Source: Gammaproteobacteria bacterium (lineage in GTDB: Bacteria; Pseudomonadota; Gammaproteobacteria; Xanthomonadales; Wenzhouxiangellaceae). From it: a DNA stretch of 34,126 nt. Of the stretch, positions 11,207-14,040 are shown in pieces (position 1 is the stretch's first letter; each line of letters opens with the position of its first letter). The notes beneath the pieces were generated by a model, which saw only the letters and a list, made by a program, of their open reading frames with translations, had not been told where the DNA came from and did no database searches. The translations under genes and the position numbers were made by a program. The DNA is taken from positions 1 through 34,126 of the forward strand of contig PWJA01000085.1 in NCBI GenBank assembly GCA_003560975.1, read 5' to 3'.

Positions 11207-11716
11207 TCAAGTCCGTCGGCCCGATCGCGACCGGGGATGGCTGCGCGTGGGCACGGTCCAGAAAATCACCGCAATCACCACCAGTACCAGACCGACCGAA
11301 AGACCGAACCAGACCCGGTTGTCCGGACCGGGCACCAGCACCGATCGGGCAGGACGGGCCGGATCGTAGTACACCGGCACCGGCTCACCCGGTTTGTACA
11401 ACACCAGCTCCTCGCGTGCCTTGATTTCGGTCTTGTCACCCAGACGGCGGCTCAGGCGCACGCGATCGTTGCCAAAGCGCTGGCCACCCACTTCGTATTC
11501 GTAGTCGACCCTGATGCGCCAGCCCGGACCCGTTCTGGCGCCGTCGACCGGCACCGCGGCCGCCTCGATCACGGTTCCGCTCACCGTCGGCCATGCGAGG
11601 CTGGCCTGCCCTTCCAGCAAGAGGTTGGCACGGTCAAAAATCAGGACCGTCCCCATCAGCAGCACCAACACTGCAGCAATGCGACGAATCCGTTTCTGTC
11701 CGGGACGTTCCGGCAC
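11207..11716 (-). CDS. DUF3592 membrane protein
   Basis: A 169-residue protein with an N-terminal membrane helix (IAAVLVLLMGTVLIF) and a C-terminal one (VWFGLSVGLVLVVIAVIFWTV) flanking an extracytoplasmic beta domain. The middle reads WPTVSGTVIEAA...VDYEYEVGGQRF...PVPVYYDPARPARSVL, the characteristic DUF3592 pattern. Translation starts at GTG (11716) with a strong AGGAGG five bases upstream. It converges on pspF with 27 bp between the stops. Function is unknown; such proteins are widespread and usually stand alone. Confidence 0.85.
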   Translation of the reverse strand: MPERPGQKRIRRIAAVLVLLMGTVLIFDRANLLLEGQASLAWPTVSGTVIEAAAVPVDGARTGPGWRIRVDYEYEVGGQRFGNDRVRLSRRLGDKTEIKAREELVLYKPGEPVPVYYDPARPARSVLVPGPDNRVWFGLSVGLVLVVIAVIFWTVPTRSHPRSRSGRRT

Positions 11717-11821: not shown

Positions 11822-11998
11822 TCAGCGATCGGCAGCCGCTTCGGCCGCGCGCAGTACCCGCAGCACGTTCCCGCCCCACAGCGCCCGGATCTCGTCTTCC
11901 GAATAACCGCGACGCAACAATTCCCAGGTCACGTTGATGGTCTCGGAGGCATCATCCCAGCCTTCGACGCCGCCACCGCCGTCGAAATCGGACCGGAC
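11822..11998 (-). pseudogene. 3' stump of a membrane dipeptidase (peptidase family M19)
   Basis: In one minus-strand frame the sequence reads SDFDGGGG, VEGWDDASETINVTWELL and RRGYSEDEIRALWGGNVLRV, then a TGA at 11824-11822. This is the conserved C-terminal end of renal-type dipeptidases. Upstream in that frame the similarity stops abruptly at about 11996, exactly where the stop of the CpeT-DUF1330 gene falls, and no further M19 sequence is visible. Roughly 57 of an expected 350-400 codons remain and no start is available. The fragment still has good codon structure and no internal stop, which suggests a recent deletion or replacement. Nothing else is seen in 11717-11821. Confidence 0.8.
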
Positions 11999-12948
11999 TA
12001 GCGGGCATACTCCGGAACCGGGACGGCCGGCAGTACCAGCACCTCGAATTCGGAGATTTCGGAGCGCAGCGGAATGATTTCCTCCTGGTACTGCGGGTCG
12101 TACCAGAACTCGCGCGCCGCCGCCAGACAGGGGAAATGCGAAATCACCACGCCCCGGCCGGCCGGCGGATCACCTTCGAACACCTCAAGCGCCGGCGACA
12201 CCGCCATCCAGTAGCCACCGGTTCGGGGATACAAGCCCGATTCCATCAGAGCCTGAGCGTAGGCGCCGAAGGCGGCCCGATCCTCGATCGTGCCGAAAAC
12301 CAGCATCCGCACCGGGTCGTCGCACACCGGCGCGTCGGCATCCAGGCGCACAAACCGATAGCCGCCGGCGGCCGGACCCCACACCAGGCTGCCGTCGGCG
12401 GCGAATCCGCGATCCCAGTTCATCGCCCCGTCCGCTTCCAGAACAAACCGGGATACCGCATAGCTGGCGCCCCGATGACCGTTCCGGCAGCGCGCGCCGC
12501 GGGTCTGCCCTTCGAAACGGTCCGGCCCGGTGCGCGAGATTTCCAGCGCGCAGCCCTCGATGGCCTCGAGACCGTTCAGATCAAACTCCGCCAGGCGATC
12601 GGGCGCTTCCCAGGCGCCGATCAGCGCCTCGCCATCGCCAATCCGGAACGGCTGCGCCACGATGGTTCCATCCGGTTCGAGGTGATGACGGCTCATGCGC
12701 TGCAGGTACGGCGCCTCGGCACCCGCCATCCAGGCTTCCAGGTACAGCCAGCGCTCGTCAGCCGACGAGGAGGGACGCTCGGCGATATGCCAGATCACCT
12801 CGGCGTAGCGATCGTCCTGGCGCGCCTGGGCCGCGGAGCTGAACGATCCAGTCCGCAAGTCCACGTATCGATCGAGCGCATCTTCGGCTGCAAGCGCAGA
12901 AGCGAGCCAGAGAATCGCTGCAGACAGCGAGAACAAGCGTGCAAGCAT
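11998..12948 (-). CDS. Exported CpeT-like domain fused to a DUF1330 domain
   Basis: A 316-residue protein starting at 12948 (MLARLFSLSAAILWLASALAAED), with a clear signal peptide cleaved near ALA-AED. Residues about 25-210 match the CpeT/CpcT family: YVDLRTGSFSSAAQA, ERWLYLEAWM..PYLQRM, IEGCALEI, FEGQTRGARC, then MNWDRGFAADGSLVWGP and GGYRFVR. Residues about 220-312 match DUF1330 (MLVFGTIEDRAAFGAYAQALME, RGVVISHFPCLAAAREFWY, YQEEIIPLR). In cyanobacteria CpeT and CpcT are phycobilin lyases; here the protein is exported and no phycobiliprotein gene is seen, so that role is unlikely. I know of no function for the fused form. Its stop abuts the dipeptidase stump. Confidence 0.83.
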   Translation of the reverse strand: MLARLFSLSAAILWLASALAAEDALDRYVDLRTGSFSSAAQARQDDRYAEVIWHIAERPSSSADERWLYLEAWMAGAEAPYLQRMSRHHLEPDGTIVAQPFRIGDGEALIGAWEAPDRLAEFDLNGLEAIEGCALEISRTGPDRFEGQTRGARCRNGHRGASYAVSRFVLEADGAMNWDRGFAADGSLVWGPAAGGYRFVRLDADAPVCDDPVRMLVFGTIEDRAAFGAYAQALMESGLYPRTGGYWMAVSPALEVFEGDPPAGRGVVISHFPCLAAAREFWYDPQYQEEIIPLRSEISEFEVLVLPAVPVPEYAR

Positions 12949-13125: not shown

Positions 13126-14040
13126 ATGACCAGCCCGTCTGCTTTCCTCGTCATTCGGCAGCTACTCAAGATCGCGCTGCTCGTCTCCGTGATCGCCCTG
13201 GTATCGGCCTGCGCCGCGACCGCCCCGGATTCCCCATCGGCGGGACACGGATCCGACGATCTCGACGTTCGCCTGGAACCGGCATCGGCTGAGGTTCAGC
13301 AGCACTCCCCGCTGGGCCATCCGCTGGCGGCGAGTCCGGCCGAGCTGCAATCGGTACTGGCAAGCCTGCGTTATGTCGAGTCCGGCCTGCTCGCCGGAAG
13401 CAGCGAGCAGCCCGTGTTTGCTGCCGACGAGCTGCAGGATCTCGTTCCGGCGTTGCAAAGCGCCCTGGCTGCGGCCACGCCCGGCCAGCAGGTTCGGTTT
13501 GCCTCGTTTACCCGGCGCGGAGGCGCGCTCGGACAACAGCGAAAGACCGAAGGAGTGGTTTTTGTCGACCGCGCCGATCGTCTGAATCTGGCCTTCGTGG
13601 ACATCCACGAATTCGCCGGACCGGACGAGGATTTTTTCCGCTTCCTGGAACTGACCGACCGCGACCCGCTGATCACCAGACCCAGCCTGATCGCGCTGCA
13701 CAGTGACCACCCCGGCCACCGCTCGCTCACGGAACAGGAACGTCAACCGCTCCCGCTCTGGATCCGGGCGGACCTTACCGCTGTCGCTGCCGAGCCGGAT
13801 CGAACCGAACACCCAGTCGCTGCCGATGAGCCGGTAGCGTCCGAAGTCCAGGCCGATCCGGTGGCGTCGGAACCCGCGCCCCCGGCAGCTGCCCCTGCCC
13901 CGCCGTCCAGCGAGGTCGACCGCATCGAACTCCAGGTTCGTCAACGGCTGCAATTCCTCAAGGAACTTCACGAAGACGGGCTGATCAGCACCGAAGAATA
14001 CGAGCAGCAACGGCGCGAGGTTCTGCAGCGTCTTGACTGA
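13126..14040 (+). CDS. SHOCT-domain lipoprotein
   Basis: A 304-residue predicted lipoprotein of unknown role. The N-terminal hydrophobic segment ends in VSAC (lipobox, Cys about residue 29). Residues about 60-200 form a domain I do not recognise beyond a mixed alpha/beta pattern (ELQSVLASLRYVESGLL, QQVRFASFTRRGG, FVDRADRLNLAFVDIHEF). An Ala/Pro/Val-rich linker follows (about 215-265), then a C-terminal SHOCT motif (LQFLKELHEDGLISTEEYEQQR), a short helical hairpin often found at protein ends. Its promoter must lie in the 177-bp region shared with the divergent CpeT-like gene. Confidence 0.82.
   Translation: MTSPSAFLVIRQLLKIALLVSVIALVSACAATAPDSPSAGHGSDDLDVRLEPASAEVQQHSPLGHPLAASPAELQSVLASLRYVESGLLAGSSEQPVFAADELQDLVPALQSALAAATPGQQVRFASFTRRGGALGQQRKTEGVVFVDRADRLNLAFVDIHEFAGPDEDFFRFLELTDRDPLITRPSLIALHSDHPGHRSLTEQERQPLPLWIRADLTAVAAEPDRTEHPVAADEPVASEVQADPVASEPAPPAAAPAPPSSEVDRIELQVRQRLQFLKELHEDGLISTEEYEQQRREVLQRLD

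Follow-up and report, generated by a model that had tools for sequence, protein, structure and literature searches.

A probably exported CpeT-DUF1330 fusion protein in a Wenzhouxiangellaceae bacterium and its possible role in a catabolic pathway

Introduction

What does a CpeT protein do outside phototrophs, where it bears the name of a bilin-lyase family with no phycobiliprotein to serve? The question is raised by a gene in the window (the whole stretch of DNA analysed here, 34,126 nucleotides), the product of which joins a CpeT domain to a DUF1330 domain. Our analysis links this gene to a catabolic cassette in related bacteria, and the link makes the annotation testable. If the substrate is a tetrapyrrole, the cassette is a candidate gene set for the bacterial breakdown of bilins or of chlorophyll- or heme-derived maleimides.

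In the open-licence literature, outside which subscription papers mostly fall, no paper names CpeT together with DUF1330, none joins CpeT, Proteobacteria and chromophore lyase, and none joins chromophore lyase with TonB-dependent. In the same literature, CpeT with "non-cyanobacterial" led only to cyanobacteria and their phages, as judged by listing, and the phrase "tetrapyrrole catabolism" was not found in connection with bilin or maleimide degradation by bacteria.

Results

The fusion gene and its ortholog

The gene and its parts are as follows.

11998..12948, minus strand: CpeT-DUF1330 fusion gene (open frame, Pfam, ortholog in L002/L040, purifying selection)
12886..12948, minus strand: probable Sec-type signal peptide, residues 1-21 (by eye; the ortholog has a similar leader)
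12346..12852, minus strand: CpeT domain, residues 33-201 (Pfam, alignments, fold match)
12028..12291, minus strand: DUF1330 domain, residues 220-307, with C274 inside and C209 just ahead (Pfam, fold match)

From position 12948 down to 11998, the minus strand of the window holds a single open frame of 316 codons plus a stop, with no internal stops. The frame remains open for 57 codons 5' of the selected ATG at 12948; we preferred this ATG because the leader begins there and a GGGAG-like ribosome site lies just upstream. The CpeT-like domain claimed by the initial annotation was recovered by Pfam as PF06206 over residues 33-201 (97.6 bits, cut-off 21, E 1.1e-27), and the DUF1330 domain claimed for the same protein was confirmed in the same frame as PF07045 over residues 220-307 (37.5 bits, cut-off 23, E 3.1e-9). 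The fusion protein had no match to NCBIfam up to E 10. Residues 1-21, read by eye, form a Sec leader, and the N-terminus of the ortholog also carries a hydrophobic leader, ending in an AxA-like site; the protein is thus likely to be exported, as first annotated.

The window genome (hereafter G000; 3.08 Mb, 99% complete) has one CpeT match and one DUF1330 match, and both are the fusion gene. The initial annotation had seen no phycobiliprotein gene in view, and this extends to the whole assembly: a profile search with PF00502, the phycobilisome domain, returned no matches in G000 or in G001, a Wenzhouxiangella metagenome-assembled genome (MAG) of the same genus. Among 61 relatives, PF00502 scored above its cut-off in two (G034:C49:48715-49032 and G046:C1:70006-70329), and G046 also carries CpeT genes.

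The ortholog lies on contig SKKM01000145.1 of the Wenzhouxiangella MAG, which is letter-identical to G001:C247 over the compared stretch. It shares 68% identity with the window protein over residues 6-307, where the contig stops; residues 268-315 lie on a further contig, and an exact 121-base overlap joins the two. Comparison of the two genes gave dN 0.27 and dS 1.10 overall, with dN/dS of 0.28 for CpeT and 0.10 for DUF1330, which is the slower-evolving part and is 85% identical between the two proteins. The fusion gene is under purifying selection. The alternative that two separate genes had been split by a sequencing error was tested and fails, given the same fusion in a second Wenzhouxiangella genome and an overall dN/dS of 0.25.

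Within the family, 2 of the 43 genomes contained the fusion; neither the 61 relatives nor 369 genomes sampled from the class yielded a further CpeT-DUF1330 fusion. CpeT itself is scarce in the phylum sample, occurring in 4 of 398 genomes with our own counted; in two of these four, CpeT is a solo gene and no cassette gene lies closer than about 10 kb. Two candidates for a further fusion were rejected: a match in G302 reads by eye as a VOC-VOC-DUF1330 lipoprotein, and a row from G059 covering residues 146-311 has a stop inside and no CpeT by Pfam, and reads as adjacent DUF1330 genes. In the plasmid set, one record matched P0001 and two matched the CpeT protein of G041. The Aeromonas record among these (L122, NZ_AP026896.1), which carries a CpeT gene and is filed as a plasmid, is probably a chromosome, since it is 4.9 Mb long.

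Predicted fold and conserved residues

The AlphaFold2 model was built from an alignment of the window protein, its ortholog and 14 cyanophage CpeT rows, the latter taken from 21 loci that a cyanophage query found in viral contigs. Its mean pLDDT was 77.9, with the CpeT region mostly near 90 and DUF1330 in blocks of 38 to 76; a two-sequence model (pLDDT 41) was left unused. Foldseek matched the model to 4o4s (CpcT with phycocyanobilin, E 5e-11), 6lix (CRL, E 1e-9), 5hi8 (phage CpeT, E 4e-5) and 2fiu (E 7e-4). With VIA-align, model residues 20-204 superposed on 4o4s with Z 23.0 and an rmsd of 2.3 over 181 residues, and the Z scores were 21.3 for 6lix and 17.2 for 5hi8. The CpeT region is therefore predicted to adopt a calyx-shaped beta-barrel fold.

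The DUF1330 part, where model confidence is low to middling, matched 2fiu (Z 10.5, rmsd 3.0 over 96) and 3lo3 (Z 10.0), which we take to be members of the DUF1330 family. The heme-degrading monooxygenase IsdG (1xbw) scored Z 8.9, level with many other barrels. The model suggests a dimeric alpha-beta-barrel fold for this region.

The initial annotation had pointed to two conserved Cys regions, and C133 and C154, as well as R84, indeed did not vary among the 15 bacterial CpeT proteins aligned; D179 is nearly invariant. All 14 cyanophage rows retain Q41, Y81, Q83, C133, C154, Y163, D179 and W190 among others, and R84 is not retained in them. By sequence alignment, D179 corresponds to D163 of CpcT and R84 is also aligned with a CpcT residue; the pocket residues of CpcT presumably hold the bilin. 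A further pair, C209 and C274, recurs in the ortholog and in three other DUF1330 proteins (L028, L029, L072) whose sequences, read by eye, suggest export or anchoring, and is absent from the ordinary DUF1330 rows of the alignment. The predicted fold would allow the binding of a tetrapyrrole or lipid in the periplasm, the role put forward as possible in the initial annotation.

A scan of viral contigs with the bacterial CpeT alignment found no relative. The annotated phage set contained 15 CpeT records, all of cyanophages by name or host.

The locus in the window

The fusion gene stands among the following neighbours.

11822..11992, minus strand: C-terminal remnant of an M19 membrane dipeptidase gene, about 56 codons (PF01244 positions 270-318)
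11207..11716, minus strand: DUF3592 protein, left flank (order the same in L108 and L110)
13126..14040, plus strand: SHOCT-like protein, right flank, divergent (26.2 bits, just below the cut-off of 27; order the same in L108 and L110)

In G001 (L110) the corresponding order is RadA, PspF, DUF3592, M19 dipeptidase, SHOCT and DASS, with an intact M19 gene of 408 aa, and G005 (L108) has the same gene order, its M19 being split over two frames. In the window, the fusion gene occupies the place of M19 residues 1-350 and only the tail remains; beyond this remnant the window genome has no M19 match. The window gene is an orphan among core genes, away from the operon described below. These arrangements suggest that the fusion gene was moved or copied from the operon, presumably in that direction, and replaced most of the dipeptidase gene.

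Contig C20 of the window genome carries PuuE1, PuuE2, isochorismatase, HapK, SDR, PuuE3, CitE, MaoC and the first half of ACAD, at 75-95% identity, and ends inside ACAD. No cassette CoAT2 was found in the window genome (best match 35%). From this missing gene the window genome had been read as lacking the cassette, a reading dropped when a PuuE3 search located the cassette on C20.

The catabolic cassette in relatives

We compared 16 stretches from 12 genomes. In G001 (L040) the run begins at HapK (11752) and continues with SDR (12065), PuuE3 (12904), CitE (13767), MaoC (14656), ACAD (15303), CoAT1 (16469) and CoAT2 (17758), and the fusion gene is its last member; as called, it has a TTG start and a four-base overlap with the CoAT2 stop. 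Divergent from the run lie genes for an isochorismatase-fold hydrolase, PuuE2, PuuE1, a membrane protein without a Pfam match, an FAD amine oxidase, cytochrome c and DUF1838. Farther out are genes for an amidase and an AMP-binding ligase, and MmgE/PrpD genes, of which Pfam identified one and the other was read by eye. The next contig, joined by the 121-base overlap, adds an SSF symporter, a DUF3598-like protein, a methyltransferase, DUF1838, VOC-CpeT, a TonB receptor and a VOC protein. An early reading of the conserved neighbours as an ABC exporter, drawn from gene sizes, was rejected when Pfam identified CoA-transferases, an acyl-CoA dehydrogenase and a hydratase.

The FAD amine oxidase of L040 (6215-8100, minus strand) has, by eye, a twin-arginine-like leader, and its gene overlaps that of cytochrome c; to our mind this arrangement recalls periplasmic nicotine oxidoreductase systems. 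In G041 and G059, LeuC/aconitase-like genes, recognized by eye, stand some 7 to 9 kb away from PuuE1 (L044 17581-18840 and L046 9505-10773); their products could hydrate a substituted maleate.

The eight-gene run from HapK to CoAT2 is whole in G001, G006, G041, G048 and G059 and partial in G000, G012, G022 and G028. It terminates in a CpeT gene in G041 and G059 as well, and CpeT is the next called gene past CoAT2 in G046 and G055. A CoAT2 match of at least 56% identity occurs in 11 of the 61 genomes. The next gene is CpeT in five of these (G001, G041, G046, G055, G059) and another gene in four (G012, G028, G048, G051), and the contig ends there in two (G006, G022). CpeT is thus a frequent but optional part of the cassette, being next in 5 of 11 genomes and absent from that place in 4. 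In G012 nothing fills the slot: about 70 bases separate CoAT2 from the end of an SSF gene. DUF1330 genes separate from CpeT lie about 6 kb (G041, G059) and about 14 kb (G048) from PuuE1, as raw distances.

Across the 61 genomes, CpeT and PuuE3 (at least 60% identity) were both present in 9, with CpeT only in 4, PuuE3 only in 2 and neither in 46 (Fisher, p 2e-6), and the corresponding counts for CoAT2 (at least 56%) were 8/5/3/45 (p 5.5e-5); with G006, a weak partial match, dropped, they became 8/4/3/46 (p 2e-5) and 7/5/4/45 (p 4e-4), and all these p-values are too small, because the genomes are related and the identity cuts were set after the lists had been viewed. A close PuuE3 is missing in 4 of the 13 CpeT genomes.

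Enzymes of the cassette

PuuE3 is close to the PuuE allantoinase 3cl6 (E 2e-63), and PuuE1 is farther from it (E 2e-19). Against the NCBIfam PuuE model, PuuE3 scored 238.3 bits, below the equivalog cut-off of 424.6. The isochorismatase-fold protein is nearest to N-carbamoylsarcosine amidohydrolase. MaoC matched RipB/Ich best in NCBIfam (E 4e-72; 241.7 bits, below the equivalog cut-off of 340), and its best match among solved structures was beta-methylmalyl-CoA dehydratase. CitE matched RipC best (E 1e-67; 228.5 bits, below the equivalog cut-off of 375) and, among structures, citrate lyase-type proteins. The two best NCBIfam matches of CoAT1 were glutarate and then mesaconate CoA-transferase, below their equivalog cut-offs. 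CoAT2 is nearest to formyl-CoA and hydroxymethylglutarate CoA-transferases, and benzylsuccinate CoA-transferase subunits were matched too. ACAD matches many acyl-CoA dehydrogenases and the amine oxidase matches L-amino-acid or monoamine oxidases; since these matches are spread over many enzymes, both proteins are uninformative on the substrate.

Two CpeT lineages and domain shuffling

A tree was built from 19 CpeT domains, leaving out the solo protein of G014, G051a and two VOC-CpeT rows. The fusions of the window and G001 group with solo gammaproteobacterial and cyanophage CpeT. The other side of the tree holds CpeT proteins with a different C-terminal part of about 110 residues; the split has 100/99 support, with long-branch warnings. 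In G041, G046, G055 and G059, which belong to three other families, the slot CpeT is of this second subfamily. Two CpeT lineages therefore occupy one slot, since the slot proteins of those four genomes fall on the other side of this split. The C-terminal part of the G041 protein, the one second-lineage protein scanned, gave no DUF1330 match in Pfam. In G689, of another class, a second-lineage CpeT adjoins a TonB receptor and stands one gene from an FAD amine oxidase.

Leader-bearing proteins mix a few domains in several ways: CpeT-DUF1330 (window and G001), VOC-VOC-CpeT (one VOC and CpeT by Pfam, the second VOC by eye), VOC-VOC-DUF1330, and DUF1330 on its own, carrying the Cys pair. Both VOC and DUF1330 fold as small barrels, and from this we suggest that the partner of CpeT, rather than CpeT itself, may do the acting.

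Proteins combining VOC and CpeT (547-579 aa) were located at L041 4929-6575 (minus), L056 5494-7137 (minus) and L058 762-2501 (plus). In these three genomes of the genus they are encoded next to DUF1838 and a TonB receptor; Pfam was run on the one in L041. The VOC-VOC-DUF1330 lipoprotein of L086 (9839-11311, minus; by eye) comes from another family, and its DUF1330 is 46% identical to that of the window protein.

Discussion

We tentatively propose, as a plausible reading that falls short of probable, that the fusion product, a two-domain protein, is exported and plays an accessory part in a catabolic pathway: its calyx binds the substrate and its DUF1330 part dimerises and may act, with a tetrapyrrole as the favoured substrate. 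In the periplasm, the CpeT calyx would bind a substrate or intermediate that is bulky and amphipathic; the dimeric alpha-beta-barrel domain would make the protein dimerise and may also act on the ligand, although catalysis by DUF1330 is a conjecture. PuuE-like hydrolases would open a cyclic amide or imide, and the isochorismatase-fold amidohydrolase would remove nitrogen. The resulting substituted succinate-type acid would undergo CoA transfer, dehydrogenation, hydration and C-C cleavage, as in itaconate/mesaconate degradation. Both the membership of the fusion protein in this pathway and the order of the reactions are inferred.

Substituted maleimides and hematinic acid are described as oxidation products of chlorophyll and heme in PMC7318184, which also states that earlier literature places such maleimides in senescent leaves and lake sediments and reports that none were detected in the leaves of that study. 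Since substituted maleimides are known as tetrapyrrole oxidation products, a linear tetrapyrrole or its fragments would be the likeliest substrate, and yet, taken by itself, a tetrapyrrole substrate is a doubtful conjecture. A more far-reaching and rather improbable version holds that a bilin-binding calyx was recruited at least twice independently into a pathway mineralising linear tetrapyrroles or their maleimide/succinimide fragments. The exported fusion would capture the pigment, which the barrel would perhaps cleave, ring opening and deamination would fall to PuuE-like imidases and the amidohydrolase, and central metabolites would be reached by a Rip-like CoA route.

The same pathway role might be played on a substrate other than a tetrapyrrole, which we regard as somewhat unlikely. 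Candidates are other natural products with a nitrogen-containing ring, alkaloids, terpenoid amides and purine-like compounds, and CpeT would then serve as a hydrophobic pocket of a general kind. In favour of this, calyx folds accommodate a variety of ligands, rings like that of allantoin are opened by PuuE-type enzymes, and the amine oxidase/cytochrome c, amidase, MmgE/PrpD, TonB receptor and VOC genes of the G001 island suit many compounds. Against it, the nearest folds are those of the bilin lyases CpcT and CpeT and of CRL, which is homologous to them, and the slot has been filled from two distinct lineages of CpeT. It is unlikely that the window copy stands outside the pathway, as a moved gene with a task of its own in the envelope or in the handling of heme or bilin, such as a lone gammaproteobacterial CpeT may have. 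Its orphan site in place of the M19 dipeptidase and its own ribosome site would fit such a task, as would the solo CpeT genes of G032, G036, G645 and G740, which have no cassette within about 10 kb on either side. One of these, at L119 (8566-10341, plus strand), lies about 110 bases behind a hemE-like gene recognized by eye, a possible tetrapyrrole link. The dN/dS of 0.25 speaks for use in general and not for which use. On the other side, most of the cassette is retained in the window genome, and the other fusion copy found closes the cassette.

With no PF00502 match in the genome, and so no acceptor detected, the protein is unlikely to work as a phycobiliprotein lyase, and an active bilin lyase for an unrecognised acceptor protein is very improbable. 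D179 and R84 do align with CpcT residues, but the phycobilisome domain has no match in G000 or G001, and phycobiliprotein assembly is cytosolic, whereas this protein looks exported. We give just as little weight to an assembly chimera in the window contig (C69). The assembly is fragmented (286 contigs) and the junction with the M19 remnant is abrupt; against this, two chimeric joints would be needed within about 1.2 kb, and both flanks follow the gene order of G001 and G005. Nor was the gene pulled in from G001, since it is 68% identical to that copy, the sole other one found.

The proposed accessory protein can be compared with several known systems. With the T-type bilin lyases CpcT and CpeT (PF06206; 4o4o, 4o4s, 5hi8) it shares the calyx fold (Z 23.0 and 17.2). 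CpcT was matched at E 2e-4 in phmmer with the window protein alone and at E 2e-34 with a profile of 15 CpeT rows, and C133, C154, Y81, D179 and W190, among others, are common to all 14 cyanophage CpeT rows. Unlike these lyases, the fusion protein is apparently exported, is joined to DUF1330 and comes from a genome without detected phycobiliproteins. CRL, the CpcT homolog of the Arabidopsis chloroplast (6lix, 6liy), has an alignable WDRGF-VWGP-G-Y-F segment (Z 21.3) and binds bilins; unlike the fusion protein it is a plastid protein, and to our knowledge it has no DUF1330 part. The DUF1330 domain is above the profile cut-off of its family (PF07045; 2fiu and 3lo3, Z 10.5 and 10.0), and unlike ordinary DUF1330 it is among the few members that carry an additional pair of cysteines and look exported or anchored.

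The operon in turn resembles the itaconate/mesaconate degradation system (RipABC and mesaconate CoA-transferase) in its MaoC, which is similar to RipB/Ich, its CitE, which is similar to RipC, and its CoAT1, for which mesaconate CoA-transferase is the second-best match. Unlike RipABC, it adds ring hydrolases, an amidohydrolase and an acyl-CoA dehydrogenase, and its matches lie below the equivalog cut-offs. PuuE3 is likewise close to PuuE allantoinase (3cl6, E 2e-63) and below the equivalog cut-off, and the operon has three paralogs together. The CpeT-DUF1330 fusion is a real and rare joining of two known domains.
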